A DNA stretch of 18,396 nt from an uncultured delta proteobacterium (GTDB lineage Bacteria; RBG-13-61-14; DRUE01), in the NCBI GenBank assembly GCA_903930515.1, contig CAIYYW010000389.1, forward strand, positions 1 through 18,396, written 5' to 3'. A model generated the notes under the pieces. The model searched no databases. It saw only the letters and a program-made list of their open reading frames with translations, and had not been told where the DNA came from. The position numbers and the translations under genes were made by a program. Shown here in pieces: positions 2,797 through 17,174 of this stretch. Numbering within the stretch: the stretch's first letter is position 1; every line of letters begins with the position of its first letter.

Positions 2797-4887
2797 GTGA
2801 AATTGAAAATTTATTATGGAGCGCTCTTTGCCGCGGCTGTGCTGCTGGTTTCCGGCCGGACCGACCGTCTGGTTTTGGAAAAGGCCGCTGATTTTGAAGC
2901 GGGAAAATTTCAAACCGCGGCCTTGTCTTCCAAAGGAAAAATCTTGAGCGGCAAATCCGTGGAAGAATTTAAAGTGGACGCGGCATCGGTCTGGTCAATG
3001 CTGGAGTTGAAGCCGGGTCAGCTGCTGTTGGGAACCGGCAACCAGGCCCGGCTCTATCAATTTGAGAACGGCAAGCTGGAGAAAATTTTTGAGGACCAGA
3101 CCAAGGGGCGGCTGGCGATCCCGGTGATCGCAAAATCGTCCACGGCGGAGATATTTTTCGCGGTCATCCCCAAGGCCGCGATCTACCGTCTCAAGGGCCA
3201 AAGCGCGGAAAAAATTGCGGAGCCGGGGGTGGACTATCTCTGGACCTTGTGCCCGATCGGCGGGGGCAATTTCCTGGCCGGGGGCGGTCCCAAGGCCAAG
3301 ATTTTCCTGGTCAAGCCGGACGGAAAATTCAGCCAACTCGCCGAATTCAAGGCCGAGCAGGTGATGGATATTATTGACGCGGGGGATGGGGAATACCTGG
3401 CCGGGACTTCCAAGCCGGCGATGCTGATCCGCTTCAAGCTGGACGGAAGCTACCGCGTGCTCTCCACCTTCAGCCAGGAAGAATTGCGGGCGGTCCGGAA
3501 GCTCTCGGACCAGAGCCTTTTGCTCGCGCTCAATCAGGGGCCGATGCCGGGAGGGATGCCGGTGATGGAGCAGGAAGGGCCTCCGCAGGGGATGGATCCG
3601 GAGGAGATGTCGGAGGGAGACGATCCGGGGGAAGAGGCTCCGCCGCCTCCGCAGATCCAGCCGCGGATGCCCGGGGGCAAGGGCGCGGTCTATCGCTACT
3701 ATCCGGACCGGGGTATGAAGCAGCTTCTGGCCCTCAAGCAGGCGACCATCCTTTCCCTGTCCGGCGACGAACAGAACGGTTTTTTTCTCGGAACCGACGA
3801 TCAGGGCAAGGTGTATCAAATTTGGCCGACCCGCGACGAATTCCTGCTCGGCTATTCGCTGGCTCCGGGCAAGGTGGTGAGTTTTGCCGGGGGAAAATCC
3901 GGCCTGGCCTGGATCGGGACCGCCCAGCCGGCGCGCCTGTTCAAGGTTAAAGAGGCCTCGGGCACGGCGAGCTACCAGAGCAAAATCCTGGACAGCCAAT
4001 TCCCGTCGCATTGGGGCAGGGTGGAATGGAGGGGGCAGGGCAAGGTGAAATTCCAGACCCGCTCCGGCAACACCCCCATTGAAGACCAGTCCTGGTCCAA
4101 CTGGGAAGAGGTGGAAGGCCCGGACCTGAAAATAAAAAGCCCGGCCGGAAGGTATATCCAGTTCCGCGCGGAATGGCCGGGCAATGAGCAGATGGAACTC
4201 AGCCGGGTGGAAATCAGTTTCCTTAATTTCAACCAGGCCCAATCTGTCACGGACCTGAAGGTGGACCTTCCCAATAATTCCGGGGACTCCCGGAGGCCGA
4301 TGCCGGAAGGGGAAGGAGGGCCTCCGCAGAAACCCTCAGCCTCGGTAATGAATCAATGCCAGATCAGTTGGCGCGTGGATAATCCGGACCAAGACCCGCT
4401 GTTCCTCGCCCTGGCCTATCAGCAGGATGGAGATTCGCTCTGGACCAAAATCGCCGATGGGGATGAGATCAAGGGCAGCCGCTTCCAATGGAACGCCGGC
4501 TCGCTTCCGGACGCCTGGTATCGGATCAAGCTGACCGCTTCGGACAGCCCGGACAACCCGGCTCCGGAAAGCTTCCAGGCAGAGCAGGTGAGCGGCCGGT
4601 TCCTGATTGACTCCACCAAGCCGGAAGTAAATTTCGCCATCGCCGAGAACGGAACCGTGAACGGAGAAGCCACCGACTCCACCAGCGCGATCAGCGATAT
4701 TGAATTCGCGGTTGACGACGAGGATTTCCGGCCGGCATCGGCATTGGACCAGGTGCTGGACCAGAAATCGGAAAAGTTCGAGTTCAAACTCAAGAAGCTC
4801 TCCAAGGGTACTCACCGGATCACGGTTCAGGCCTGCGACCAGGCGGATAATTGCCGGATGAGGGCGCAGGAATTCAATGTGAAATGA
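2797..4887 (+). CDS. Secreted beta-propeller protein with C-terminal Ig-like region
   Basis: This 696-residue protein starts at GTG 2797, 6 nt after a near-perfect AGGAGGT (2784-2790) that overlaps the upstream stop. Residues 1-20 look like a signal peptide, with no lipobox. At least five blade-like repeats share the pattern hydrophobic-G-T/G-x-aromatic: LLLGTGNQARLYQF (76-89), FLAGGGPKAKIFLV (159-172), YLAGTSKPAMLIRF (200-213), FFLGTDDQGKVYQI (329-342) and AWIGTAQPARLFKV (371-384). A Pro/Met/acidic low-complexity insert at about 248-296 interrupts the propeller. Residues about 390-480 (WGRVEWRGQG, TRSGNTP, WSNWEE) resemble a beta-sandwich found after propellers in other exported proteins. 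Residues about 520-696 look Ig/fibronectin-like. No catalytic motif was found. A binding or scaffold role beside the peptidase is an inference. Confidence 0.75.
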   Translation: MKLKIYYGALFAAAVLLVSGRTDRLVLEKAADFEAGKFQTAALSSKGKILSGKSVEEFKVDAASVWSMLELKPGQLLLGTGNQARLYQFENGKLEKIFEDQTKGRLAIPVIAKSSTAEIFFAVIPKAAIYRLKGQSAEKIAEPGVDYLWTLCPIGGGNFLAGGGPKAKIFLVKPDGKFSQLAEFKAEQVMDIIDAGDGEYLAGTSKPAMLIRFKLDGSYRVLSTFSQEELRAVRKLSDQSLLLALNQGPMPGGMPVMEQEGPPQGMDPEEMSEGDDPGEEAPPPPQIQPRMPGGKGAVYRYYPDRGMKQLLALKQATILSLSGDEQNGFFLGTDDQGKVYQIWPTRDEFLLGYSLAPGKVVSFAGGKSGLAWIGTAQPARLFKVKEASGTASYQSKILDSQFPSHWGRVEWRGQGKVKFQTRSGNTPIEDQSWSNWEEVEGPDLKIKSPAGRYIQFRAEWPGNEQMELSRVEISFLNFNQAQSVTDLKVDLPNNSGDSRRPMPEGEGGPPQKPSASVMNQCQISWRVDNPDQDPLFLALAYQQDGDSLWTKIADGDEIKGSRFQWNAGSLPDAWYRIKLTASDSPDNPAPESFQAEQVSGRFLIDSTKPEVNFAIAENGTVNGEATDSTSAISDIEFAVDDEDFRPASALDQVLDQKSEKFEFKLKKLSKGTHRITVQACDQADNCRMRAQEFNVK

Positions 4888-6602
4888 GCAGGCGGCTCAA
4901 CTATTTATATTTTCTGCTCGGCTTCTTCCTGGCTTTTTCTCTGTCTGCCCGGCCTGCTCCGAATGCGGTTTCAAAAAAAGGAATGGTTGCCAGCGCGCAT
5001 CCGATCGCAAGCGAAATCGGCGCGAAAATCCTGGCGCAAGGCGGAAACGCGGTGGATGCAGGAATCGCCGCGGCTTTTGCCCTATCGGTGGTTGAGCCTT
5101 ACAGTTCGGGCTTGGGCGGAGGCGGATTTATGATGATCTACACCGCGGGGACGGGAAGGCCGGAAGACAATGTGATCGCGCTGGATTTTCGCGAAACCGC
5201 TCCCATCCTCGCGCGTAAAGACCTGTATAAAAAAGACGGCGTCGTGGTTCCGGGCTTAAGCCTGACCGGGCATCTCGCGGCCGCGGTTCCGGGCGAAGCC
5301 GCCGGCTTGGAATACGCTTATAAGAATTTTGCGAGCGGAAAGTTGTCCTGGCCGGAACTGATCCAGCCGGCGATTAACTTGGCAAAAAACGGCTTCCAGA
5401 TTGACCCGGAATTTTTCAAACGCGAACTCGTGGATTTAAAAAAATTAAACCAATTCCCCGCGACCGGAAAAAACTTTCTGAAAGCCGGTCTTCCTTATCT
5501 GCCGGGAGAAAATTTCCGCCAGCCGGACCTGGCAAAAAGTCTTCAGGCGATTGCCAATGAGGGCGCGAAAGTTTTTTATCTGGGATGGATTGCGGAGGCG
5601 ATAGACAAGGAGATGCAAAGTTCCGGCGGACTGATCCGGAAAGAGGATCTGGCGAATTTCAAGGTTCGGGTGCGCAAGCCCATCATCGGAACTTATCGGG
5701 GGTCTAAAATAATTTCAATGCCCCCTCCCAGCTCGGGCGGAATTTGTCTTCTGGAAATATTGAACATCCTGGAAGGATATGATCTGGCCTCGCTCGGGTT
5801 TGATTCCGCGCAAACCGTGCGGATTCAGGGCGAGGCAATGAAGCTGGCTTTTTATGACCGGTTCCGGTATCTCGGCGATCCCGCCTTTGTGCAGATTCCC
5901 TTGGACAAACTCTTAAGCAAGGAATACGCAGGCGAGCTCAGAAAATTGATCACGGACAAACCCATTCCAAGCGCGGAGCTTTCCAAAATCTCCGCGCAAC
6001 AAAATTCACCGGAGAAATTCGGCCATACCACACATCTCTCCGTGGTTGACGCAAAGGGAATGGCGGTTTCCCTCACCCAGACCATCAACACCAATTTCGG
6101 CTCCGGCGTAGTGGTTCCTGGAACCGGCATTCTGCTCAATAATGAAATGGATGATTTTTCCGCGGCCCCCGGAGCGCCCAACGCTTTCGGCTTGATCCAG
6201 GGAGAGGCCAATGCGATCGGGCCGGGGAAAATTCCGCTCTCTTCAATGAGCCCGAGCCTGGTCTTCAAGGGCGATCAGCTCTGGCTCGTGATCGGCTCTC
6301 CGGGCGGACCCAGGATCATCACCAGCGTTTTGCAAACCATCCTCAACCTGATTGACTTCAAGATGAGCCTGCCCGAGGCCATAAACGCGAAACGGATTCA
6401 TCAGCAATGGCTTCCGGATCAAATCCTGATGGAAAACGGCAGATTGCCGATCTCCGAGAAAACCGAGCTGGAAAAAGCCGGGTATCATTTATCGGGATAT
6501 TTTCTGCCCGGCAATGTCCAGGCGATCTTAATCACAGAGGATGGCGCTCTGCTCGGCGTGAGCGACCCGCGAGGAATCGGAAGGCCGGCAGGAGTTGAGT
6601 GA
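4884..6602 (+). CDS. ggt: Gamma-glutamyltransferase (secreted, Ntn-hydrolase)
   Basis: This is a 572-residue gamma-glutamyltranspeptidase precursor. The family cleaves or transfers the gamma-glutamyl group of glutathione and similar compounds in the periplasm after cutting itself into two subunits. The self-processing and catalytic threonine is T382 in GHTTHLSV. Other signature positions are R103 (DFRETAP), the acidic NNEMDDF loop (419-425), PLSSMSP (451-457) and GSPGGPR (471-477). Residues 1-22 (ending FSLSA) form a signal peptide. The start at 4884 overlaps the previous stop as ATGA; a longer frame from 4851 would spoil the signal peptide. The family is certain. The substrate in this organism is unknown, and the neighbours (exported peptidase and propeller) suggest peptide or glutathione scavenging in the envelope. 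Confidence 0.95.
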   Translation: MSRRLNYLYFLLGFFLAFSLSARPAPNAVSKKGMVASAHPIASEIGAKILAQGGNAVDAGIAAAFALSVVEPYSSGLGGGGFMMIYTAGTGRPEDNVIALDFRETAPILARKDLYKKDGVVVPGLSLTGHLAAAVPGEAAGLEYAYKNFASGKLSWPELIQPAINLAKNGFQIDPEFFKRELVDLKKLNQFPATGKNFLKAGLPYLPGENFRQPDLAKSLQAIANEGAKVFYLGWIAEAIDKEMQSSGGLIRKEDLANFKVRVRKPIIGTYRGSKIISMPPPSSGGICLLEILNILEGYDLASLGFDSAQTVRIQGEAMKLAFYDRFRYLGDPAFVQIPLDKLLSKEYAGELRKLITDKPIPSAELSKISAQQNSPEKFGHTTHLSVVDAKGMAVSLTQTINTNFGSGVVVPGTGILLNNEMDDFSAAPGAPNAFGLIQGEANAIGPGKIPLSSMSPSLVFKGDQLWLVIGSPGGPRIITSVLQTILNLIDFKMSLPEAINAKRIHQQWLPDQILMENGRLPISEKTELEKAGYHLSGYFLPGNVQAILITEDGALLGVSDPRGIGRPAGVE

Positions 6603-6605
6603 TAG

Positions 6606-7055
6606 ATGAAGAAGACCGCGCCATTGCCCCTGGAGGATTTGCTGGGAAAATTCTTCCGCTCCCAGGGACAGGGACAGAGGTTCCAGGAACTCAAGGTTTT
6701 CCAGCTCTGGAACGAGGCGGTGGGGGAAGAGATCGGCAAGAACGCCCGGCCGGTGTCGGTCAATCAGGGGCGGCTGGTGGTCGCGGTGAGGAATTCCATC
6801 TGGCTCTCGGAACTGGGGTTTGAGCGGCAGAAGCTGAAAAAGAAATTGAACCGCGTTCTGGGCAAAGGGATCATCCAGGAGATCTCCTTCCGGATCGGAC
6901 CGATCCCGGATTCAGTTCCCGATCCGGAAGAATCCCCACCCGATTCTAAACCCCTGACCCCGGAGCTGGAACAAAAACTTCAGAAGCTGCTTTCGCGGAT
7001 TGACGACCCGGACCTGAAAAGCGCGCTGAAAAACCTGCTCCGCGCGCTTCAATAA
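6606..7055 (+). CDS. DUF721 / DciA-like protein
   Basis: This is a small 149-residue cytoplasmic protein. Residues about 8-98 match the DUF721 pattern: an N-terminal helix, LWNEAVGEEIGKNARPVSV (34-52), RLVVAVRNSIWLSEL (56-70) and a basic helix, KLKKKLNRVLGKG (76-88). Members of this family include DciA, which helps load the replicative helicase in many bacteria. That role is not shown for this protein, and no replication genes are nearby. A Pro/Asp-rich linker (about 99-118) leads to a C-terminal helix. The ATG lies 3 nt after the ggt stop, so it is probably the last gene of the run. Its stop touches the stop of the convergent metF with no spacer. Confidence 0.75.
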   Translation: MKKTAPLPLEDLLGKFFRSQGQGQRFQELKVFQLWNEAVGEEIGKNARPVSVNQGRLVVAVRNSIWLSELGFERQKLKKKLNRVLGKGIIQEISFRIGPIPDSVPDPEESPPDSKPLTPELEQKLQKLLSRIDDPDLKSALKNLLRALQ

Positions 7056-7940
7056 TTACGCCACTCCCGCCTTTTGCATCAGGTCCGGCACATATTTTGC
7101 CCAACCCATGGCCATAATGTGGAATCCCTGGCACATCGGCTTCAAGTCTTTCATCAGTTTTGCCATCAGGTCAATGGCGAGTTTGGGCCGGTCTTCCTTG
7201 CCCGCCTCCGAGAGCGGCTTGATGATGCTGTCGGGCACGAACACCCCCGGGACCTTCTCGTTCATATATTTGGCCATAGCCGGGCCTTTCACGATCACGA
7301 TTCCGGCCAATACCGGCGTTTTGAACCGGCTCGCGGTTTTCATAAACTTTTCAAACTTGTCCGGATCGTAGATCGCCTGGGTCTGAAAAAATTCCGCGCC
7401 CGCTTCCACCTTCTTCTCCATCTTGAGCAGTTGCGGCTCCACCGGGTCGGCCCCGGGAGTGACCGTGGCTCCGGCGAAAATATCCTTGGGCGATCCGACC
7501 AGGTCGGCTCCGGAAAGGTCTTTTCCGTTCTTGAGCGTGCTGATGGTATGGAGGAGCGAGACCGAGTCCAGATCAAACACGCATTTGGCGCCGGGATGGT
7601 CTCCGAGCGAGGGATGGTCTCCGGTAAGGGCGAGGATGTTCCTGATCCCGAGCACATACCCGCTCAGGATGTCGGACTGGATCGCGAGCCGGTTGCGGTC
7701 GCGGCAGGGGATCTGGTAAATCGGCTCAAAGCCGGCCTGCACCAGACGGGCGCAGATTCCGAGCGAACCGATCCGCATCACCGAGCTTGGGTTGTCCGTG
7801 ACATTGACCCCGAGCACGCGGCCTTTGAGGAACTTCTCCGCCTCTTCCATCATCGGGCCGATCTCCACCCCCTTGGGCGGTCCCAACTCTCCGGTGACGG
7901 CAAAGTTTCCCGCTTCCAAAGCCTGCTTCAGCTTGCTCAT
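7056..7940 (-). CDS. metF: Methylenetetrahydrofolate reductase, MetF flavoprotein subunit
   Basis: This 294-residue TIM-barrel flavoprotein would reduce 5,10-methylene-THF to 5-methyl-THF for methionine synthesis or the methyl branch of the Wood-Ljungdahl pathway. Family landmarks are E18 in TGELGPPKG (E28 of the E. coli enzyme), D108 in LTGDHP (D120) and FFQTQ with Q187 (Q183). By eye, the position of E. coli F223, which packs against NADH, is P220 here, and the usual ILPV motif reads IVIV. This is consistent with an electron donor other than NADH. The ATG follows AAGGAGG (7947-7953) by 6 nt, and that site overlaps the metV stop. It is the last gene of the hydrogenase operon. Enzyme identity is very secure; the electron partner is an inference from context. 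Confidence 0.93.
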   Translation of the reverse strand: MSKLKQALEAGNFAVTGELGPPKGVEIGPMMEEAEKFLKGRVLGVNVTDNPSSVMRIGSLGICARLVQAGFEPIYQIPCRDRNRLAIQSDILSGYVLGIRNILALTGDHPSLGDHPGAKCVFDLDSVSLLHTISTLKNGKDLSGADLVGSPKDIFAGATVTPGADPVEPQLLKMEKKVEAGAEFFQTQAIYDPDKFEKFMKTASRFKTPVLAGIVIVKGPAMAKYMNEKVPGVFVPDSIIKPLSEAGKEDRPKLAIDLMAKLMKDLKPMCQGFHIMAMGWAKYVPDLMQKAGVA

Positions 7941-7952
7941 CCCAGTCCTCCT

Positions 7953-8657
7953 TTATTGCCTGCCCGCGGATTTTGGCGCGCGATATAGTTGCTCTTCTTC
8001 CAAAGCCCAGCGGGTGTTTTTGCGCTCCTGGTCCGAGACCTCCCAGTTCCGGTAGTCGCGGAGTTTCGGCAGCTTCTTCAGGTTGTCCAGCTTGCCCAGC
8101 GCTTTCAGCTTCTCGTAGATCAAATGCCAGGCGCAATCCCTTTGCGTCTCCACCTCGCATTTGCCGTCTTGAGTGCCCCCGCATTGGCCGTTGAGCAAAC
8201 TTTTGGCGCAGCGCGTGATCGGGCAGATGCCCCCGGTGAGATGGAGCAGGCAGTCCCCGCACCCGTCGCAACGCTCCACACTCGGCCACAGCCCCTGCAT
8301 CCCCTGGCTGTTCAAAGTGTTGTTGGCCGGAAGGGAGGGGAGATCTATCATCGCCGCAGTCGCCTGCACGCCCACCCCGCAACTCACCACCAGCACCGCG
8401 TTGGAATTTTTCAGAGCCGGAATCCGGCAACGGAGCTGGGCGCCGACCAGGGCCTTGTTGCAGAGGAAATCTATCATCTGAATCCCGGAGACCTTCTTCC
8501 CGGACTTGATCAGTTCGGCCTTCAAATCCTCCAGCCTGGCCCGGCCCCCGCTCTCGCACCCGATCGGGCAGCCGCCGCATCCCAGGATATATACCCCCTG
8601 GTAATCGCTCAGCAATTCCTTCAATTCCTCCATCGGTTTTGGGACATTAACTATCAT
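7953..8657 (-). CDS. metV: MetV, Cys-rich Fe-S/zinc partner of MetF
   Basis: This 234-residue protein belongs to the MTHFR C-terminal-domain family. It accompanies a short MetF in acetogens and is thought to carry electrons to the flavin. There are 14 cysteines: an N-terminal cluster CGGCPIGC (C27, C30, C34), C66, C77, C93, and the family core at about 130-180 with CDGCGDC (C130, C133, C136), C145, C150, C159, C167 and C175, ending CAWHLIYEKLKALGKLD. These can hold one or more Fe-S clusters and a structural metal. Its ATG overlaps the protease stop as ATGA, preceded by AAGGAGG (8664-8670) at a 6-nt spacing. It lies directly between the hydrogenase genes and metF, which makes it the natural electron bridge if the proteins form a complex. 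Confidence 0.92.
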   Translation of the reverse strand: MIVNVPKPMEELKELLSDYQGVYILGCGGCPIGCESGGRARLEDLKAELIKSGKKVSGIQMIDFLCNKALVGAQLRCRIPALKNSNAVLVVSCGVGVQATAAMIDLPSLPANNTLNSQGMQGLWPSVERCDGCGDCLLHLTGGICPITRCAKSLLNGQCGGTQDGKCEVETQRDCAWHLIYEKLKALGKLDNLKKLPKLRDYRNWEVSDQERKNTRWALEEEQLYRAPKSAGRQ

Positions 8658-9145
8658 TCCCGACCTCCTTTGGTTTCGCTGAATTCCTTCTCAACCGCGT
8701 CAAGCAACTGGTCCATTTTGCCGGAAACCGTCTCGCTCAATTCCAGGCTGGGGATGATCTTTTCCGGCTCCATTCCGAGGAAAATAATTTCTTCCGGCAA
8801 TTTGGAAACCAATTTCTCCAGGGCGAGAGCCTTGGGCACATCCAATTCGTGGAGCGAGAGCATCCGGCCCGGATCGCCGGTCTGCTTGGATTCCAGCTCC
8901 TGCAAGGTGAACCGGTAGATCGCCCCCGGAGCCGAACCTCCCTTGACCGCGTCAATGATCACCGCCTTGTCAAACCCCTCAAGGGTCCCCAGCAACGAAT
9001 GCAAAAAAGTTCCGCCGTCAAAGAGCGTGACATTCAGAGGAACTTTCCGGGCTTCCAGCTTTTCCACCGCCCGCACCCCCAGGCCTTCGTCTCCCATCAA
9101 GATGTTGCCGACCCCGATCACGGCGATTCTTTTGACCTTATCCAA
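8654..9145 (-). CDS. [NiFe] hydrogenase maturation endopeptidase (HupD/HybD/HycI type)
   Basis: This 163-residue protease trims the C-terminal tail of the hydrogenase large subunit once nickel is inserted. The signature GVGNILMGDEGLG carries E20, IIDA carries D65 and LSLHEL carries H99. These match the nickel-binding E16, D62 and H93 of E. coli HybD. The start is inferred to be TTG at 9143-9145, because an in-frame TGA lies two codons upstream and GVGN must begin near residue 10. GGAG stands about 7 nt upstream. The start overlaps the large-subunit stop by 8 nt, and the end overlaps the metV start by 4 nt, so synthesis is tightly coupled. The adjacent large subunit has the expected cleavable tail, so the pair is matched. 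Confidence 0.93.
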   Translation of the reverse strand: MDKVKRIAVIGVGNILMGDEGLGVRAVEKLEARKVPLNVTLFDGGTFLHSLLGTLEGFDKAVIIDAVKGGSAPGAIYRFTLQELESKQTGDPGRMLSLHELDVPKALALEKLVSKLPEEIIFLGMEPEKIIPSLELSETVSGKMDQLLDAVEKEFSETKGGRE

Positions 9146-10694
9146 AATTCAACTCCGACACTTTAGTCCCTTGATAATTGATGATATGGACCGCGCAGGC
9201 CAGGCAGGGATCAAAACTCCTCACCACCCGGACCAGCTCAAACGGATGGTTCGGATCCTTGACCGTAGTATTCATCAGGGCCTGCTCCATCGGCCCGGGT
9301 TGCCCCTTCTCGTCCTTGGGAGAGGCGTTCCAGGTCGTGGGCACCACCAACTGGTAGCGGTCTATTTTTTTGTCCTTGATCTTGATCCAGTGGCCGACTG
9401 CTCCCCGGGGAGCCTCGGTGATCCCCATCCCTTCGGCCTGGTCCGGGAGCTGGTAATACGCGCAGACCGGCTCGCCCGGCTTCAGCTCCAGCACCCAGCC
9501 CGCCATCGCGTCTGCGATCAATTTGGCTTCCAGCGCCCTGGCCCCGTGTCTTCCGAGCAGGGAATTAAGCGCGTTGGCATCAGCCTTAAGCTCGCTCAGG
9601 GTTGCATCCACAATTTTCTTCACCGGCGCCACCCCGGCAAAATAGCTTACCAGAACCCGGGAGAGCGGGCCGACCTCAAAAACCTTGCCTTGATAGCGCG
9701 GAGTCTTGATCCAGGTATAGGCCCCGGATTTCTTCCGGTTCGGGACCGTGTCCTCCCGGCCGGGATGCGCCGCGTCCGGTCCGTCAAACCAGGAATTCCG
9801 GACGCTCTCCGTGATCTGGGAGGCGTCCAGCGGTTTGAGCTTTCCCTGCTCCAAGACCCCCTGGGCCAGGAACCGCTTGCGCTTCGCGTAATCGGGATTT
9901 TGGGTTTCCAGGTCAAACCCTCCGTAGGAGAGAAAATTTCCGGACCCGGCTCCGATCTGGAAATGATCGGAATATTTCTTCGCCACCGCGATCACATCCG
10001 GGATATAAATGTTGTCCACAAACTCGCGGATCCGGTTCAGCCTCCAGAGGAACCCGGTGATCTTGTCCACCGTCGGAGGCTCGGTGCACCCGCCCGGGAC
10101 GATGCTCGCGGTATGGGGCATTTTTCCCCCGAAAATCGCCAGCATCTCATGCGCGAGTTTCCTCATCTCCAAAGCCATCACATAATGCCTGACCAGTTCT
10201 CGGTTGGTCTTTTTATCAAACCGGTAATCGCCATCGTAGCGAGGCACAAACGGCTCCAAGGCTCCGCGCGAGATGAAATCCTTGATGGAATGCAGGGCCG
10301 GGTCAGCTCCGTCATAGTCCGCGACCGCAGTCACATCCACATAATCCAGCGCGGCCAGATGATAGAAATGAAGGATATGCGATTGCAGAAAATTGGAGCC
10401 GAAGATCAAATTCCGGATGATCCTGCCGTTGTCCGGTATTTTGTCCGCGATCCCGAACGCGGAGTCCAAATTCAGGGTGCTGGCGATGCCATGCGCGATC
10501 GGGCAGACCCCGCACACGCGCTGGGTCAGGAACTGGGCGTCGCGCGGGTCTCTGCCTTTGAGTATTATTTCAAAACCGCGGAACAGGGTTCCGGAGCATT
10601 TGGCCTCCTTAACCTTGCCTTGGTCCAACATCACTTCAATCCCCAGGTGTCCTTCAATCCTGGTTACCGGGTCAATCACAATCTTTTGCGACAT
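9138..10694 (-). CDS. [NiFe] hydrogenase large (catalytic) subunit
   Basis: This 518-residue subunit carries the Ni-Fe(CN)2CO site. Both metal-binding motifs are intact: RVCGVCPIAH (C61, C64, H68) and SFDPCLACAVH (C497, C500, H503). E14 in TRIEGH is the conserved proton-path glutamate. The codons for both C-terminal ligands are TGC, so this is not a selenoenzyme, although the sequence (GGCTEPPTVDKI, DNIYIPDVIAVA, GNFLSYGGF) resembles the group 1a/NiFeSe branch. Fifteen residues follow H503, the expected peptide removed by the neighbouring protease. GGAGG (10702-10706) precedes the ATG by 7 nt. No membrane anchor or cytochrome gene follows it. The group assignment is by eye and needs a tree. 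Confidence 0.97.
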   Translation of the reverse strand: MSQKIVIDPVTRIEGHLGIEVMLDQGKVKEAKCSGTLFRGFEIILKGRDPRDAQFLTQRVCGVCPIAHGIASTLNLDSAFGIADKIPDNGRIIRNLIFGSNFLQSHILHFYHLAALDYVDVTAVADYDGADPALHSIKDFISRGALEPFVPRYDGDYRFDKKTNRELVRHYVMALEMRKLAHEMLAIFGGKMPHTASIVPGGCTEPPTVDKITGFLWRLNRIREFVDNIYIPDVIAVAKKYSDHFQIGAGSGNFLSYGGFDLETQNPDYAKRKRFLAQGVLEQGKLKPLDASQITESVRNSWFDGPDAAHPGREDTVPNRKKSGAYTWIKTPRYQGKVFEVGPLSRVLVSYFAGVAPVKKIVDATLSELKADANALNSLLGRHGARALEAKLIADAMAGWVLELKPGEPVCAYYQLPDQAEGMGITEAPRGAVGHWIKIKDKKIDRYQLVVPTTWNASPKDEKGQPGPMEQALMNTTVKDPNHPFELVRVVRSFDPCLACAVHIINYQGTKVSELNFG

Positions 10695-10709
10695 CGTTAT
10701 GCCTCCCTA

Positions 10710-11597
10710 TTATCCGCGGGTTTTAATCTGGAACCGAGAGAGCCGGTCTTCGTTGATCTTTTCAAAAACCGGCTGAACATCGTCCGGAAAGGTCGGCTCG
10801 CAACAGCCGATGCAGGGCGATCCCGCGCCAACGCACCAGTTCACCCCGTTGTTCCAAAGCCGGGTCGGACAGTCCGCGTAAGTCAGCGGACCCTTGCAGC
10901 CGATCTGGTAAAGACAGCCCGGATCGCTGGCGCGCTGGGCGAACCGGCCGGCGTCAAAATAAGCCCGCCGCGGACAATTATCGTGGATCAGTTTTCCGTA
11001 AAAGGCCTTGGGCCGGAGCGCATAATCAAGATCATCCGCGCTCGGCAGTCCCTTCAGCATCACCATTGCGACCGTGCCCAGCAGCCAGTCCGGATGAGGC
11101 GGACAGCCCGGGACATTGATCACCGGCTTCTTGATCCCGGCCTGGTCCAAGGCCTGCTTCACGCCCTGCGACCGGCTCGGATTGGGATGAGCCGCGGGGA
11201 TCCCGCCGAAGCTGGCGCAGGTGCCTACGCTCACCACCGCGAGCGCGTCCCTTGCCAAATCCAAAAGCTTGTCCTGGAAGGCGATCTGCTTTCCACCGAC
11301 TTCGCCGATGGTGCAGTAAAGCCCGTCATCTTGGCCCACCACCGAGCCTTCCACCAGCACCAGGTATCCGCCTTTGTCGGCTTTCCGGGTGGCTTGAAGA
11401 ACCTGCATCGCCGGTTCCCCCTGCCCGGCCATCACCGTGGAGTGGAACCGGAGGTTGAGGTGCTTGCCCGGGATGATCGGGTCAATCAGGAGGTTCTTCA
11501 CCGTGGGCGACACCGCATTCAGCAGCGAGACCGAGCAGCCGCTGCAACTGGCGCCCGCGATCCAGACCGCGGGTATCTCTACGACTTTAGTGGACAC
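10710..11597 (-). CDS. [NiFe] hydrogenase small subunit without Tat signal
   Basis: This 295-residue electron-transfer subunit has all cluster ligands visible: proximal C18, C21, C127 and C165; distal H205, C208, C228 and C234; medial C243, C262 and C265, plus C255 in NWC where standard group 1 enzymes have NWP. The extra cysteine predicts a medial [4Fe-4S] rather than [3Fe-4S] cluster. The protein starts directly with VVEIPAVWIAGASCSGC and has no twin-arginine leader. The frame upstream of GTG 11597 meets a TGA at 11649-11651, and the 17 codons between contain no start codon and no RR motif. The start is preceded by AAAGGGGGA. It is the first gene of the hydrogenase-metVF operon and probably cytoplasmic, unlike typical exported group 1 enzymes. 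Confidence 0.95.
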   Translation of the reverse strand: MSTKVVEIPAVWIAGASCSGCSVSLLNAVSPTVKNLLIDPIIPGKHLNLRFHSTVMAGQGEPAMQVLQATRKADKGGYLVLVEGSVVGQDDGLYCTIGEVGGKQIAFQDKLLDLARDALAVVSVGTCASFGGIPAAHPNPSRSQGVKQALDQAGIKKPVINVPGCPPHPDWLLGTVAMVMLKGLPSADDLDYALRPKAFYGKLIHDNCPRRAYFDAGRFAQRASDPGCLYQIGCKGPLTYADCPTRLWNNGVNWCVGAGSPCIGCCEPTFPDDVQPVFEKINEDRLSRFQIKTRG

Positions 11598-11729
11598 TTT
11601 GATCCCCCTTTGTTTGGAATTGTTTAAGCGAGAAAAAGACTGAACCCGTCATTTGTCTTCCCTGCTCCCTTACTGTCCTGTCGTAAACATAGTTGAGTTG
11701 CGCTTCAGAACTGCCGCACCGGTTGGATA
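11598..11729 (-). other. About 130-nt leader of the hydrogenase operon
   Basis: This is the predicted untranslated leader between the promoter and hydrogenase start. No known riboswitch class was recognised by eye. It contains a possible short upstream frame (minus strand, 11652-11587, 21 codons beginning MTGSVFFSLK). An AGGGA lies about 7 nt before its ATG, and the frame runs through the hydrogenase start codon. The ATG of this frame overlaps the TGA that closes the hydrogenase frame. Confidence 0.3.
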
Positions 11730-11731
11730 AA

Positions 11732-11753
11732 ATTGAAAATAGCAAAATTCAAT
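11732..11753. promoter_or_regulatory. Operator-like inverted repeat over the hydrogenase -10
   Basis: ATTGAA (11732-11737) and TTCAAT (11748-11753) form a perfect 6+6 inverted repeat with a 10-nt spacer. It overlaps the -10 element of the hydrogenase operon promoter. The 16-bp centre-to-centre spacing fits a dimeric regulator on one face over about 1.5 turns. A repressor site is plausible, but no regulator gene in the window can be assigned to it. Confidence 0.35.
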
Positions 11754-11764
11754 CAGGCTGTCAA
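11736..11764 (-). promoter_or_regulatory. Sigma70-type promoter of the hydrogenase-metVF operon
   Basis: On the minus strand a perfect -35 TTGACA (11759-11764) is followed after exactly 17 nt by TATTTT (11736-11741), 4/6 to the -10 consensus. Predicted transcription start is near 11729, giving a leader of about 130 nt before the GTG at 11597. It lies just beyond the TonB-family stop, so the operon can be expressed independently of that gene. Confidence 0.6.
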
Positions 11765-11785
11765 GTTTTGCGACACCCAATGGGA

Positions 11786-12589
11786 TCACCGCGTCAAAAT
11801 CCGGAATTCGCAGATGATTGAGAGCTGTCCGTTCTCGTCCAGCAGCTCTTTGGGAACACTGAACACCGGCGTGGAATTCTTGATCGCGGAGAGCGCGGCC
11901 CGGTCCACTGCCTGGAACCCGGATGAGGAAAGCACTTCAAGGTCCTTGAGGAGACCGTCCTGGTTAAGAACGAATCTGGCCTTGGTGACCAGGTCGGCGC
12001 CGGTCGCCGGAACCAGGCGGAGGGACGGTCCGGGGTTCCAGTAAAAGGCGATTGAGCGCTTGAGCTGGTTGAAGAAATATGCGTATTGGTATTTGTAGGA
12101 ATTGGCCAGGGTGATTTGCCCGGAAGCGGCCCCTTCCAGGAAATCAATGGAACCCGGCTGATCCTGGAACAGGCCCTGGGGCTGGAAAATTTCCGGCTTC
12201 AGCTTCTCGGCCAGGGTCAAATCCCCGGAATCCTCCGCAGGCGGTTTCTGGAAAAGGTTCTGGCTGGATACCGGCGCCGCGGAATGACCGGCAATGGGCT
12301 TGCCCGGAGGAGCCACGGTTTCCCGGTCCGCCTTCATCGCCCGTTCGGAAAGGTATTTGGCTGAATCCGGCTGCTGGTCCGGCCCGGGAGGAAGCTCAAT
12401 GATCTGATGGGCCGACGATTGGTCCAAATCCTTAAGCTCAATCGGAACCACCTCAATATAATCGTCCGGCTTTTGATCAAGGGTCTGGGCCGAAGCCGTT
12501 CCGAATTGATATATCCGGAACAGCAGCAACTGCGCGAAGAAGGCAAGCAGGAACAAACAAGTCAGATATAAGGTTCGGAAACCGCTCAT
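11786..12589 (-). CDS. TonB/TolA-family energy transducer
   Basis: This is a 267-residue inner-membrane protein with a single N-terminal membrane segment (about 8-27), a Pro/Gln-rich periplasmic linker (about 35-145) and a C-terminal domain of TonB type. Residues 161-190 (ANSYKYQYAYFFNQLKRSI, YWNP) match the helix preceding TonB domains in TonB/TolA-like proteins. Residues 198-264 (VTKARFVLNQDGLLKDLEV, SSGFQAVDRAALSAIKNS) are the TonB_C fold. Such proteins pass proton-motive-force energy from ExbB/ExbD-type motors to outer-membrane receptors, or act in envelope upkeep. No ExbB/ExbD or receptor genes lie in the window. There is no Shine-Dalgarno, but a promoter sits immediately upstream, implying a near-leaderless mRNA. 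Confidence 0.85.
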   Translation of the reverse strand: MSGFRTLYLTCLFLLAFFAQLLLFRIYQFGTASAQTLDQKPDDYIEVVPIELKDLDQSSAHQIIELPPGPDQQPDSAKYLSERAMKADRETVAPPGKPIAGHSAAPVSSQNLFQKPPAEDSGDLTLAEKLKPEIFQPQGLFQDQPGSIDFLEGAASGQITLANSYKYQYAYFFNQLKRSIAFYWNPGPSLRLVPATGADLVTKARFVLNQDGLLKDLEVLSSSGFQAVDRAALSAIKNSTPVFSVPKELLDENGQLSIICEFRILTR

Positions 12590-12597
12590 CTTTAATT

Positions 12598-12626
12598 ATG
12601 ATACCTGGAATTGATTTGCGTTCCAA
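12598..12626 (-). promoter_or_regulatory. Promoter for near-leaderless TonB-family mRNA
   Basis: On the minus strand TTGGAA (12621-12626) and TATCAT (12598-12603, 5/6 consensus) are separated by exactly 17 nt. Counting 7 nt from the -10 places transcription start at about 12591, only 1-2 nt before the ATG at 12589. This fits the absence of a Shine-Dalgarno. Confidence 0.5.
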
Positions 12627-12662
12627 ACCGGGCAGGGGAGGGATCGTCCCTATTCTTCGTCC

Positions 12663-13307
12663 TTACCAACCTTCCCGGGCGAGCAGGGCGATGATCCGGT
12701 CCAGCCTGGGGATCAGTTCCTTGGGGGTATCGCTGGGGCCAAGCCCGGCATACTTGGCCGGGGCAAGGTATTTGATCACCTTCTTGAAGGTGTCGTCAAC
12801 CGGCTTGTGGGTCAGGAACAGGATCGGAACCAGACCGTGTTTGGGATAGGTCTTTTCAATGGCGCGGATCCCGATTGCGGCGTTGATCCCGTTCAGATAC
12901 GGCATCGGAACATCCAGGACCAAAAGGTTGATCTGATTCCCGGTATCGCTGCTCAGGTCCGGAATCAGCTTGATAATAATTTCCTCGCCGCTCTCGCACG
13001 GAATCACCGAACGCGCCAGGTTCTTGCGGCTGACTTCGTTGACAATAATGTTCATCAGCTCCGGCCGGTACCCGGCAACCATCACCGTGTCATAAGTCGG
13101 GATGACGATGCTATCGTCGCTGAAGGCTATTTCCTGCGAATCCGAAAGGAGCGCGTCCCGGAAACCTTCGTCCGCGACGGCTTCATCAAGGAAAGCCCCG
13201 CAGTTGGAACAGCGGAGCCGCTCCACCCCTTGCACCCCGAGGGAAACCGACACCACTTCCACTTTTCTGCCGCATCTCTGGCAGAACTTTAAATCATCAC
13301 CCAACAT
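12663..13307 (-). CDS. Zinc-ribbon protein with degenerate receiver-like domain
   Basis: This is a 214-residue soluble protein. The N-terminus is a zinc ribbon: CQRCG (C9, C12) and CSNCG (C33, C36). After a linker, residues about 72-210 look like a CheY-type receiver. LLVLDVPMPYLNG gives the phospho-acceptor-like D132, FLTH gives T166, and LAPAKYAG gives K185. The acidic pair that normally follows beta-1 is missing (the strand reads DTVMVAGY), so Mg-dependent phosphorylation is doubtful and the domain may work without it. No DNA-binding output domain is present and no kinase is adjacent. A role in protein-protein signalling is possible, but the true function is unknown. The gene has its own strong promoter and no Shine-Dalgarno. 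Confidence 0.7.
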   Translation of the reverse strand: MLGDDLKFCQRCGRKVEVVSVSLGVQGVERLRCSNCGAFLDEAVADEGFRDALLSDSQEIAFSDDSIVIPTYDTVMVAGYRPELMNIIVNEVSRKNLARSVIPCESGEEIIIKLIPDLSSDTGNQINLLVLDVPMPYLNGINAAIGIRAIEKTYPKHGLVPILFLTHKPVDDTFKKVIKYLAPAKYAGLGPSDTPKELIPRLDRIIALLAREGW

Positions 13308-13336
13308 TTTACTAATATTATAATCTAAAAGATAAT
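13308..13336 (+). promoter_or_regulatory. Promoter of the glycerate kinase gene
   Basis: On the plus strand TTTACT (13308-13313) and GATAAT (13331-13336, 5/6 consensus) are 17 nt apart. Predicted transcription start is near 13343, leaving about 22 nt with AGGGGA (13356-13361) before the ATG at 13365. This promoter is interleaved with the divergent promoter of the zinc-ribbon/receiver gene. Confidence 0.45.
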
Positions 13337-13344
13337 AGAGTCAA
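13317..13344 (-). promoter_or_regulatory. Promoter for near-leaderless zinc-ribbon/receiver mRNA
   Basis: Minus strand: TTGACT (13339-13344), a 16-nt spacer, and a perfect TATAAT (13317-13322). The predicted start, near 13310, is about 3 nt before the ATG at 13307, so the transcript would be essentially leaderless. The -10 lies in the palindrome ATTATAAT (13317-13324). Confidence 0.6.
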
Positions 13345-13364
13345 AACCAGGGGACAGGGGAAGA

Positions 13365-14696
13365 ATGGGAAGATTGGATGGTTTAAGACAGGCAGGCTTG
13401 GGAATATTTTCAGAGGCGCTCCGGGCCGCGGACCCGCTGGAAGCGGTTCACCGCTGGTTCCGGCTCAAGGAGAGCGTGATCAAGATCGGGGAAGTGGATT
13501 ATTTCCTCAATCAATTCAAACATATCTGGGTGATCGGAGCGGGAAAGGCCTCCGCCCGGATGGCCAAGGCGATTGAGGAATGTCTATCCGACCGGATCAC
13601 CGGCGGGTTGGTGATTGTCAAGTATGGCTATGGCGAAACCCTGAAAAAGATTCTGGTGAAAGAGGCCGGTCATCCGATCCCGGACCAGGCCGGAATATCG
13701 GCCACCCGCGAACTGATGGACCTGGCGAAGACCCTGGAAAAAGAAGATCTGGCGATCAACCTGATTTCCGGGGGAGGGTCTTCACTGCTGGTCGCGCCGG
13801 CTGATGGGGTTTCGCTGGAAGACCAACAAACGATCACCGAGCTGATGCTGCGGTCCGGGATGAAGATCGGGGAGATCAACCTGGTGCGGAAGCATCTTTC
13901 GCGGGTCAAGGGCGGGAGGCTGGCGGAAATTTTATATCCGGCAACCGTGATCAGCCTGATCTTTTCAGATGTGATCGGAGACCGGCTGGAAGTTATCGCG
14001 AGCGGGCCGACCGCTCCGGATTCAACCACCTATTCGGAAGCGATCGGTCTGGTCAGGAAGTATCAGCTCTGGGATCAAATCCCGGAATCGGTCCGAAAAG
14101 TCCTTACGCTGGGCGCGGCCGGGAAGCTTTCCGAAACCCCCCGTGCCGATCACCCGGCCTTCAGCCGCGCGCAAAACCTGGTCATCGCCTCCAACCGGCT
14201 CTCGCTGGAATCCGCCCGTTACTGCGCGTCCAAGCTCGGCTTCAACACCGTCCTGCTCTCCAGCGCGATCCAGGGAGAGGCGCGCGAGCTGGCCAAGGTT
14301 TACGGCTCGATTTTCCGGGAAATGCTCAAGAGCGGAAACCCGATCAAACCGCCGGCCTGCGTGATCGCCGGGGGAGAGCCGACCGTAACCGTCAAGGGCA
14401 AGGGCAAAGGGGGGAGGAGCCAGGAACTGGCCCTGGCCGTGGCAATGGAGATTCAAGGGATGGAGGGGGCGCTGTTCGTTTCCGCGGGAACCGACGGGAC
14501 CGACGGGCCGACCGACGCGGCCGGGGCGGTTGCCGACTGGGAAACCATCTCCCGCGCTTGGGCAAGGGAAATGGATCCGGACCGGTATCTGAGCGAGAAC
14601 GACTCCTACAATTTTTTCCAACCCCTCGGAGACCTGATCATCACCGGCCCCACCCGGACCAATGTGATGGATGTTCATATCCTGCTGGTCGGATGA
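13365..14696 (+). CDS. Glycerate 2-kinase (type 2, MOFRL family)
   Basis: This 443-residue enzyme would phosphorylate D-glycerate, in this family usually to 2-phosphoglycerate, which enters lower glycolysis. Family motifs in order are WVIGAGKASARMA (55-67), NLISGGGSSLL (132-142), IASGPTAPDS (211-220), IAGGEPTVTVKGKGKGGRSQ (334-353), SAGTDGTDGPTDAAGA (373-388) and TGPTRTNVMD (427-436). Length is normal for the family and no export signal is present. The ATG follows AGGGGAAG closely. It appears monocistronic, with about 140 nt to the next gene, which has its own promoter. No serine-glyoxylate or tartronate semialdehyde genes adjoin it, so the source of glycerate is not shown. Confidence 0.93.
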   Translation: MGRLDGLRQAGLGIFSEALRAADPLEAVHRWFRLKESVIKIGEVDYFLNQFKHIWVIGAGKASARMAKAIEECLSDRITGGLVIVKYGYGETLKKILVKEAGHPIPDQAGISATRELMDLAKTLEKEDLAINLISGGGSSLLVAPADGVSLEDQQTITELMLRSGMKIGEINLVRKHLSRVKGGRLAEILYPATVISLIFSDVIGDRLEVIASGPTAPDSTTYSEAIGLVRKYQLWDQIPESVRKVLTLGAAGKLSETPRADHPAFSRAQNLVIASNRLSLESARYCASKLGFNTVLLSSAIQGEARELAKVYGSIFREMLKSGNPIKPPACVIAGGEPTVTVKGKGKGGRSQELALAVAMEIQGMEGALFVSAGTDGTDGPTDAAGAVADWETISRAWAREMDPDRYLSENDSYNFFQPLGDLIITGPTRTNVMDVHILLVG

Positions 14697-14836: not shown

Positions 14837-15769
14837 ATGCGGAAAAAAATCACGATTTTCGGGGCCGGTAATGTGGGCGCAAGCCTGGGGCAACTGGTGG
14901 TGTTCAGCGGGATCGCGGACCTGGCAATGATTGACATTGCCGAGGGGATTGCCGAGGGCAAGGCCCTGGACCTGGCGCAGGCGCGTCCGGTTTACGGCTC
15001 GGATTCCAAAGTGATCGGAGGCTCCGACCCTTCGCTCACGCGAGACGCGGACCTGGTTGTGATCACGGCCGGGATTACGCGCAAGCCCGGGATGAGCCGG
15101 GAAGAACTGCTGGAGACCAACGCGAAGATCGTGGGACAATGCGCGTCCGCGGTCGGGCAATATGCCGGAAACGCCTTGGTGATCGTGATCTCCAACCCGC
15201 TGGATGTGATGACTTATGTGGCGAGCGAAGCCGGCAAATTGGACCGGCGCAAGGTGATGGGAATGGCCGGGGTGTTGGACTCGGCAAGGTTCCGTCATTT
15301 CCTTTCCGAGGCGATCGGCGGAAGCGTCAAGGACATCCAGGCAATGGTCCTGGGCGGGCACGGAGACGAGATGGTCCCGCTCTTAAGCTACGCGGTCTGG
15401 CAGGGGGAAAAGATTCAAAAATTGGTTCCTGCCGAGGTCCTGGAAAAAATCGTAACCCGGACCAAGAACGCGGGCGCGGAGATCGTGTCCAAACTCAAGA
15501 CCAGCGCGTTCTACTCGCCGGCCGCGTCCGCTTTTGAAATGATCAAGGCGATCTTCGGCGACGAGAAGCGTCTGCTTCCCTGCTCGGCCTGGCTCAACGG
15601 AGAATACGGGGTCAAGGGGATTTATGTAGGGGTCCCGGTCATCCTCGGCAGCGCCGGGGTGGAGAAGGTGGTGGAGTTGGAGCTGACAGCGCAAGAGAAG
15701 GAATCCTTCGCCAAATCCTGCCAGGCGGTCCGGAGTTCAGTTGAAAAGTTGAAAGGTTTAAAGGGATGA
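14837..15769 (+). CDS. mdh: Malate dehydrogenase (LDH-like type)
   Basis: This 310-residue cytoplasmic enzyme interconverts malate and oxaloacetate with a nicotinamide cofactor. The Rossmann motif is FGAGNVG (8-14), and D33 ends beta-2, favouring NAD over NADP. The substrate loop TRKPGMSR has R82 at the position that separates malate from lactate dehydrogenases, plus R88. SNPLDVMTY (119-127), D148-x2-R151 and GGHGDEMV with catalytic H175 complete the active site. A GAGG lies about 12 nt before the ATG. Its stop overlaps the fumarase alpha start as ATGA. With fumarase next to it, this forms the oxaloacetate-malate-fumarate segment of the TCA cycle, usable in either direction. Confidence 0.96.
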   Translation: MRKKITIFGAGNVGASLGQLVVFSGIADLAMIDIAEGIAEGKALDLAQARPVYGSDSKVIGGSDPSLTRDADLVVITAGITRKPGMSREELLETNAKIVGQCASAVGQYAGNALVIVISNPLDVMTYVASEAGKLDRRKVMGMAGVLDSARFRHFLSEAIGGSVKDIQAMVLGGHGDEMVPLLSYAVWQGEKIQKLVPAEVLEKIVTRTKNAGAEIVSKLKTSAFYSPAASAFEMIKAIFGDEKRLLPCSAWLNGEYGVKGIYVGVPVILGSAGVEKVVELELTAQEKESFAKSCQAVRSSVEKLKGLKG

Positions 15770-16608
15770 ACCAGCGCGGACTCAGCAGGGAGAAACTGGT
15801 CAAGGCGGTCAAGGAACTTATTCTCCGGGCGAACTTTGAGCTGGAGCCGGAAGTGATTCGCCTGCTGAAAAAGGCGGAGCGGGAGGAAATTTCTCCAGAG
15901 GGGAAAATTGCGCTCAAGATTATTTTGGAGGATATCAGGGTCGCGTCTGAGAAGAAATTGCCGATCTGCCAGGATACCGGTTTGAGCGTTTTTTTGGCGG
16001 AGCTGGGGCGAGGGGTATCTCTGGATTTTGATTTGGCGGACGCGCTCAACCAGGGCTTGCGCGAAGCCACCCAAGAAGGATATCTCCGGAGATCGGTGGC
16101 CGACCCGCTCACTCATAAAAACACCGGCGACAACACTCCGGGGATCGTTCATCTGAATTTAGTTTCCGGCAACCGGCTCCGGATCCGGCTTCTGGTCAAG
16201 GGAGCGGGGTCTGAGAACAAGAGCCGGGTCCGGATGCTGACTCCGGCGGAAGGAAAAGAAGGGATAAAAAAATTCGTGCTGGAAACCGTATCCAGGGCCG
16301 GGGGCCAGGCCTGTCCGCCCCTTTTCATCGGCCTGGGCATCGGCGGCGATTTGGAAATGTGCGCGATTTTGGCCAAGCAGGCCTTGGCGCGAAAAGCCGG
16401 GAGCAGATCAAAAGACCGGGAACTGGCAAGGCTGGAGCGGGAAATTCTGAAAGAGGTGAACCGGCTCGGGATCGGTCCCGGAGGATTGGGCGGAAAATTC
16501 ACCTGCCTCGGCGTGCAGGCGGAAAAATCAGCGGGACATATTGCGAGTCTGGCCGTGGCGGTGAACCTTCAGTGCTGGGCGCACCGGGGCGGAGAGATTG
16601 TGCTATGA
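15766..16608 (+). CDS. Fumarate hydratase class I, alpha subunit
   Basis: This 280-residue N-terminal-domain subunit of the two-gene class I fumarase/L(+)-tartrate dehydratase family would interconvert fumarate and malate with a catalytic [4Fe-4S] cluster. The three ligands are C68 (LPICQDTG), C183 (QACPP) and C270 (NLQCWAHRG). Other family markers are DPLTHKNTGDNTP (113-125), GAGSENKS (146-153) and GIGPGGLGGKFT (235-246). The ATG overlaps the mdh stop by 4 nt. Tartrate dehydratase has the same domain plan, but the mdh partner favours fumarase. The exposed cluster makes this type oxygen-sensitive, fitting an anaerobe. Confidence 0.95.
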   Translation: MNQRGLSREKLVKAVKELILRANFELEPEVIRLLKKAEREEISPEGKIALKIILEDIRVASEKKLPICQDTGLSVFLAELGRGVSLDFDLADALNQGLREATQEGYLRRSVADPLTHKNTGDNTPGIVHLNLVSGNRLRIRLLVKGAGSENKSRVRMLTPAEGKEGIKKFVLETVSRAGGQACPPLFIGLGIGGDLEMCAILAKQALARKAGSRSKDRELARLEREILKEVNRLGIGPGGLGGKFTCLGVQAEKSAGHIASLAVAVNLQCWAHRGGEIVL

Positions 16609-17174
16609 AATTGGAGCAGGCGAGAAGAATTCAAACCCCGCTCACAGCCGGGGTTTGCCATTCGCTTAAGGCCGGCGATTGGGTCTTGCTCTCGGGAAGG
16701 GTTTACACCGCCAGAGACCAGGCGCACCGGAGAATGGCGGATGCGATTGATCAGGGAAAGCGGTTGCCGTTTTCCTTGCAAGGAGAATTGATCTATTATA
16801 CCGGGCCGACTCCGGCGAGACCGGGGCGCGTGATCGGAAGCGCCGGCCCGACCACCAGTTCGCGGATGGACCAATATCTGGAAAAAATTCTCGGCCTGGG
16901 GGTTCTTGCAACTATCGGCAAGGGGGAGCGGTCTAAAGAGGCCAGGGAGGTGTTCCAGAAGTTCAACGCGCTCTATCTGACTGCCATCGGCGGGGCTGGG
17001 GCGTATCTGTCGGAGCGGATCAAGAAAAGCCGGGTCCGGCTCTGGCCGGATCTGGGACCGGAGGCGGTTTACGAATTGGAAGTGGAAGACTTTCCCGTCC
17101 TGGTGGCCTATGATCTTTCGGGCAATGATTATTTTGAGCGATGCCGGGATAAATATCGCAAGGGAGTGGAATGA
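16605..17174 (+). CDS. Fumarate hydratase class I, beta subunit
   Basis: This 189-residue C-terminal-domain partner of the alpha subunit has the family motifs LLSGRVYTARDQAHRRM (28-44), YYTGPTP (64-70), IGSAGPTTSSRMD (77-89), TIGKGE (103-108) and AIGGAGAYLSERI (127-139). R37, H41 and K106 are conserved active-site candidates. The correct start is ATG 16605, which overlaps the alpha stop as ATGA; an in-frame extension back to 16359 only reads the alpha gene in another frame. Length is normal. It would assemble with alpha into the active enzyme. A probable terminator follows. Confidence 0.95.
   Translation: MKLEQARRIQTPLTAGVCHSLKAGDWVLLSGRVYTARDQAHRRMADAIDQGKRLPFSLQGELIYYTGPTPARPGRVIGSAGPTTSSRMDQYLEKILGLGVLATIGKGERSKEAREVFQKFNALYLTAIGGAGAYLSERIKKSRVRLWPDLGPEAVYELEVEDFPVLVAYDLSGNDYFERCRDKYRKGVE

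Follow-up and report, generated by a model that had tools for sequence, protein, structure and literature searches.

Which electron donor serves the MetVF-type methylene-THF reductases (MTHFRs) is a recognized puzzle in the energetics of acetogens (PMC8760232), and group 1 hydrogenases of Chloroflexi have been noted without a known electron partner (PMC3971608). The window, the whole 18,396-nucleotide stretch of DNA analyzed here, raises the question of whether the two belong together: it carries a [NiFe]-hydrogenase in one operon with metV and metF (Table 1), and such an operon would answer both questions at once in one lineage, with MetVF as the partner of the hydrogenase. In the order of transcription, the five genes are joined by a 15-nt gap, an 8-nt overlap, a 4-nt overlap, and a 12-nt gap; when we rechecked the coordinates, the five minus-strand genes with their boundaries, overlaps, and gaps were all as an earlier note on this DNA had given them. 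Shine-Dalgarno sites are found upstream of the large-subunit gene, metV, and metF. According to family searches, the adjacent metF and metV (PF02219 and PF12225) make up the core of a MetVF-type MTHFR. Near the operon, the window also harbors a cluster of genes for a malate/lactate dehydrogenase and a two-subunit class I fumarase (positions 14837 to 17174).

Table 1. Features of the hydrogenase-metVF operon in the window
Feature	Position	Strand	Description
[NiFe]-hydrogenase, small subunit	10710..11597	-	295 aa, GTG start; hydA/NiFeSe-type family match
[NiFe]-hydrogenase, large subunit	9138..10694	-	518 aa; PF00374/NF033181
HyaD/HycI-type hydrogenase maturation protease	8654..9145	-	163 aa, TTG start; PF01750, TIGR00072
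metV	7953..8657	-	234 aa; PF12225
metF, flavin methylene-THF reductase barrel	7056..7940	-	294 aa; PF02219
Promoter-like site upstream of operon	11736..11764	-	TTGACA-17-TATTTT, 10/12, sigma-70-like; consensus match only

The large subunit scores 714 bits against the NF033181 model (cut-off, 600), and its RVCGVC and DPCLACAVH motifs provide a CxxC at both ends, as in group 1 [NiFe]-hydrogenases, while a tail of 15 residues follows His503 for cleavage by the protease. The residue at the Ni site is Cys497 instead of selenocysteine, with a score under the NF045518 cut-off, and we discarded a reading as [NiFeSe]-hydrogenase since the encoded residue is Cys. Among solved structures, the closest come from sulfate reducers and are periplasmic hydrogenases of both the [NiFeSe] and the [NiFe] kind. 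The 12 small-subunit ligands of three Fe-S clusters align with the positions of Desulfovibrio baculatum 1cc1_S, an NiFeSe enzyme with three [4Fe-4S] clusters. With the VhuA model for group 3c Mvh hydrogenases, the score was 99 bits (cut-off, 800), and MvhD is missing from the window.

No Tat leader could be detected on the small subunit of the window. Its frame offers only 17 codons upstream of the GTG start, devoid of an Arg-Arg motif, and for this reason no Tat leader is possible from it; the earlier note was thus right in describing a hydrogenase without an export leader. Export was also rejected for the wider set described below, since none of the 33 leaderless loci has a Tat motif and no upstream start in the window adds one. 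In family searches, neither a cytochrome b nor a cytochrome c partner was found among the window genes searched. Judging from its sequence, the enzyme is a group 1 [NiFe]-hydrogenase without a leader, predicted to be cytoplasmic and paired with MetVF. A distant group 1-like hydrogenase of Cytobacillus firmus DS1, a Bacillus-type organism, likewise has no recognizable Tat motif and sits on a very long branch.

With the large subunit as the query, a scan of species genomes in GTDB yielded 52 relatives, only two of which have protease, metV, and metF genes downstream, namely, a Spirochaetota MAG (L005, large subunit 66% identical) and a Dehalococcoidia MAG (L006, 57%), both leaderless. The remaining relatives have no metVF downstream and nearly all bear a Tat leader. 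The phylum of the window comprises three genomes in the collection, and the genus-mate of the window genome (G001) has the operon on two contigs, both ending inside the protease gene, which we infer to join into one operon. Among the 393 genomes of the Dehalococcoidia, 25 of the best 30 matches are leaderless; four more genomes of the Spirochaetota harbor the operon, and a complete 3.56-Mb genome of the Bacillota, the phylum of L052 (Gracilibacter), has the genes in the order small subunit, large subunit, metV, metF, and protease. Of the 33 leaderless loci, two (L110 and L122) break off with their contigs short of the region tested. The other 31 are evaluable, and every one has metV downstream of the hydrogenase genes; 30 also have metF after it, the corresponding stretch of L159 reading as N. 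The loci belong to the genus of the window, the Spirochaetota, the Dehalococcoidia, and one Bacillota-type complete genome and therefore span four phyla. Conversely, metV was not found beside any of 52 homologues with a Tat leader; for 46 of these, the downstream sequence extends over 3 kb or more. The conservation of the linkage, proposed as a check in the earlier note, is hence confirmed in related genomes.

The hydrogenase-metV junction persists where the rest of the operon varies: metV stands directly after the large-subunit gene in L119, L120, L123, and L180, where the protease gene is absent or moved behind metF, and in L180 the junction is kept although the gene order is rearranged. The nearest exported sisters, L131 and L133, have cytochrome b in place of MetVF, and L131 has a Tat-exported Fe-S subunit besides. 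The Dehalococcoidia enzymes with and without a leader group together as one clade in a tree of the large subunit (SH-aLRT, 99). Since metVF accompanies the leaderless forms and cytochrome b their nearest exported relatives, a leader with cytochrome b and no leader with MetVF seem to be two alternatives within a single lineage of hydrogenases.

MetV consists of an N-terminal alpha/beta domain and a C-terminal PF12225 domain, and its eight C-terminal cysteines, all of which are conserved, would bind two [4Fe-4S] clusters. A sequence search found no solved relative, and the structural matches of a moderately confident model (pLDDT, 79.7) were to generic alpha/beta domains only. The hydrogenase-linked MetV proteins form one clade apart from the Hdr-linked and other MetV proteins (support, 96/93; 95% of bootstrap trees). 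For the hydrogenase-linked MetF proteins, a group from which L164 and L165 were left out of the tree analysis, the tree requires five or more changes, and monophyly is rejected (P = 2.7e-11). The distance correlation with the small subunit is 0.85 (r) for MetV and 0.54 for MetF. As these trees show, MetF was exchanged several times while the hydrogenase and MetV stayed together, and since MetV was kept through these replacements, we deem it the likely docking subunit, that is, the contact of the hydrogenase. A weaker hint in the same direction comes from the C-terminal tail TRWALE of the window MetV, since similar TxWALE-like tails occur in about 20 hydrogenase-linked MetV proteins and in none of nine others, although one Dehalococcoidia subclade lacks the tail. 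On the side of the small subunit, a comparison of leaderless with exported forms singled out Gly227, which is specific to the leaderless ones (32 of 32) and borders the distal-cluster ligand Cys228; Ala212 and Ala220 of the same region also separate the two forms. These few positions are suggestive at most.

In our view, the operon probably encodes an H2:methylene-THF oxidoreductase that is soluble and located in the cytoplasm. Its small and large hydrogenase subunits would oxidize H2 at the Ni-Fe site. From there, electrons would travel along the three small-subunit [4Fe-4S] clusters, reach those of MetV, docked near the distal cluster, and move on to the flavin of MetF, where methylene-THF would be reduced to methyl-THF; the protease would serve only to mature the large subunit. 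The earlier note had proposed this route from H2 to MetVF, and the conserved linkage and the retention of MetV, not MetF, with the hydrogenase support it. We infer, beyond this, the physical complex and its composition, a direct path from cluster to cluster, the reducing direction, and the lack of bifurcation. The E0' of the methylene-/methyl-THF couple is -200 mV (PMC6895022), from which we computed a standard value of about -41 kJ/mol for the reduction of methylene-THF by H2; at 1e-5 bar H2, the value is -13 kJ/mol. Where H2 is plentiful, a direct transfer that does not bifurcate would squander energy, which counts against this reading.

How does such an enzyme compare with the known systems? 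Four MTHFR types have been distinguished: MetF alone, MetVF, MetVF-RnfC2, and MetVF-HdrCBA-MvhD (PMC8760232). Type II, found in Clostridium ljungdahlii and Thermoanaerobacter kivui, comprises homologues of MetF and of the Fe-S subunit MetV and has no dedicated partner known, whereas in the window a hydrogenase is coencoded; T. kivui, named in the earlier note as an HdrABC-MvhD system, is in fact placed in this type, with MetVF alone (PMC8760232). Type III RnfC2-MetVF of Acetobacterium woodii is likewise soluble and joins MetVF to one dedicated electron-input module, but its input is NADH through RnfC2 instead of H2 through a hydrogenase, and no NuoF/RnfC-like gene was found among the window genes searched. 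In type IV (Moorella thermoacetica and Sporomusa ovata), an Fe-S redox module is also encoded beside the same MetV-MetF core, but it is HdrA/MvhD working with NADH or a membrane chain, whereas the module in the window is a [NiFe]-hydrogenase working with H2; here, the hdrCBA-mvhD genes lie on another contig (C366), without metVF. The overall reaction, from H2 to methyl-THF, is shared with S. ovata, in which, however, a periplasmic hydrogenase delivers the electrons via the membrane (PMC9430772), while the hydrogenase in the window has no leader, cytochrome, or membrane subunit. The closest relatives of the latter, the group 1 [NiFe]- and [NiFeSe]-hydrogenases such as Desulfovibrio HysAB and Dehalococcoidia Hup, have the same Ni-Fe site and cluster ligands but are Tat exported, in contrast to the cytoplasmic, MetVF-paired clade of the window. 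Among the open-access papers checked on Chloroflexi, Spirochaetota, NPL-UPA2, and acetogens, none describes a hydrogenase-metVF operon.

Hydrogenase-MetVF is accordingly put forward as a candidate fifth MTHFR type beside the published types I to IV. We are inclined to think that it constitutes a class of its own, a soluble enzyme that passes electrons from H2 directly to methylene-THF, needs neither NAD(P)H, ferredoxin, or quinone nor bifurcation, is present in at least four phyla, and is the sole MTHFR found in some of its hosts. Since the pairing recurs in 31 sampled species of four phyla, some anaerobes probably have an as yet undescribed route by which electrons from H2 enter carbon fixation directly. 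If this is true, a single soluble enzyme would allow uncultured anaerobes to link low H2 with the methyl branch of the Wood-Ljungdahl pathway, and the operon offers a small, testable target for expression.

When we inspected the window genome (G000) by family searches, we identified one MetV and one MTHFR, a single PF02219 match, and no other MTHFR was found in G000, G001, G443, or G106. G000 has a second [NiFe]-hydrogenase with NAD(P)H-module genes (contig C138) and one HdrCBA-MvhD cluster beside a Flx-like NAD(P)H module (C366, locus L146). The absence of Hdr and MvhD reported in the earlier note therefore holds for the window but not for the genome; as for an Hdr- or RnfC-type partner encoded elsewhere, which it had also considered, one HdrCBA-MvhD cluster does exist, but it comes without MetVF and with its own Flx-like module. 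In G002, of the same order, MetVF is adjacent to MvhD and a hydrogenase of this kind is missing. Of the 18 genomes checked, 17 have acetyl-CoA synthase, which favors the reading as an H2:methylene-THF oxidoreductase; G000 is the exception and counts against it, as family searches of G000 detected neither acetyl-CoA synthase beta nor a CdhD match, whereas G001 has acetyl-CoA synthase and CdhD on one contig. Since the G000 assembly is 93% complete in 401 contigs and its genus-mate has both genes, the cluster may have been lost from the assembly; such a gap, or a methyl branch used alone, is possible but unproven.

The main rivals of direct transfer are transfer through ferredoxin and an assembly with Hdr-MvhD in trans. 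In the former, the operon partners would have no direct wire, the hydrogenase reducing ferredoxin or another soluble carrier and the carrier reducing MetVF. Group 1 hydrogenases do reduce viologen-like acceptors. Furthermore, purified type II MetVF takes reduced ferredoxin in vitro, which argues for a carrier and counts against direct transfer (PMC8760232). However, the operon contains no ferredoxin gene, and a carrier leaves unexplained both the hydrogenase-specific MetV clade and the position of metV directly after the large-subunit gene where the protease is absent. In addition, the reduction of ferredoxin by H2 alone is unfavorable at environmental H2, and we regard this explanation as unlikely. 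A shade less likely is a larger bifurcating machine, where the hydrogenase-MetVF unit (HyaSL-MetVF) would bind HdrCBA-MvhD in trans and H2 would reduce methylene-THF and ferredoxin together. MvhD is indeed present in 18 of 18 genomes checked, with HdrCBA-MvhD on C366 in G000, Hdr genes are often found apart from MetFV-MvhD (PMC6085437), and S. ovata MetVF interacts, though weakly, with Hdr/MvhD proteins, which again counts against direct transfer (PMC9430772). The Hdr cluster of G000, however, has its own NAD(P)H-dehydrogenase-like genes, and G003 and G004 encode, besides the hydrogenase-linked MetVF, a separate MetVF pair linked to HdrA-MvhD or MvhD (L072 and L074), whose MetV proteins fall outside the hydrogenase-linked clade.

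The enzyme might also run in reverse, with methyl-THF as the electron donor and H2 as a product, during the syntrophic oxidation of methyl groups or acetate, as hydrogenases are reversible and some Wood-Ljungdahl organisms oxidize acetate (PMC6895022), but with the -200 mV couple we computed that H2 would have to fall below about 1e-7 bar for its release to be downhill, and we judge this improbable. Chance or mere co-regulation of unrelated genes, to which the different neighboring genes of the operon in different lineages might point, is hardly credible and was rejected, since a gene order recurring in 31 of 31 evaluable loci from four phyla, including the rearranged L180 with its intact hydrogenase-metV junction, is far beyond chance.

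Several loci show further features. In the Dehalococcoidia loci L111, L116, and L117 (e.g., the region of L117 from 11583 to 14540), a gene of about 385 codons lies between metV and metF. The one scanned, that of L117, encodes a sensor histidine kinase that includes a cyclic-nucleotide-binding-like domain; downstream of metF, this locus has two single-domain response regulators, and the arrangement suggests dedicated signaling for the hydrogenase-MetVF operon. A second, divergent MetV gene is found between metV and metF in L006 (positions 10767 to 11490) and L107 (positions 4862 to 5533); in L006, this copy contains an in-frame TAA where the frame is normally open, and decay of the gene or a sequencing error may account for it. 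In one Dehalococcoidia subclade, the operon of L105 (positions 4274 to 10246) adjoins a CODH/ACS cluster, a CooC-like ATPase, and NuoE/NuoF-like genes, an adjacency which ties it to the Wood-Ljungdahl pathway, and the gene sizes near the operon are similar in L108 and L109.
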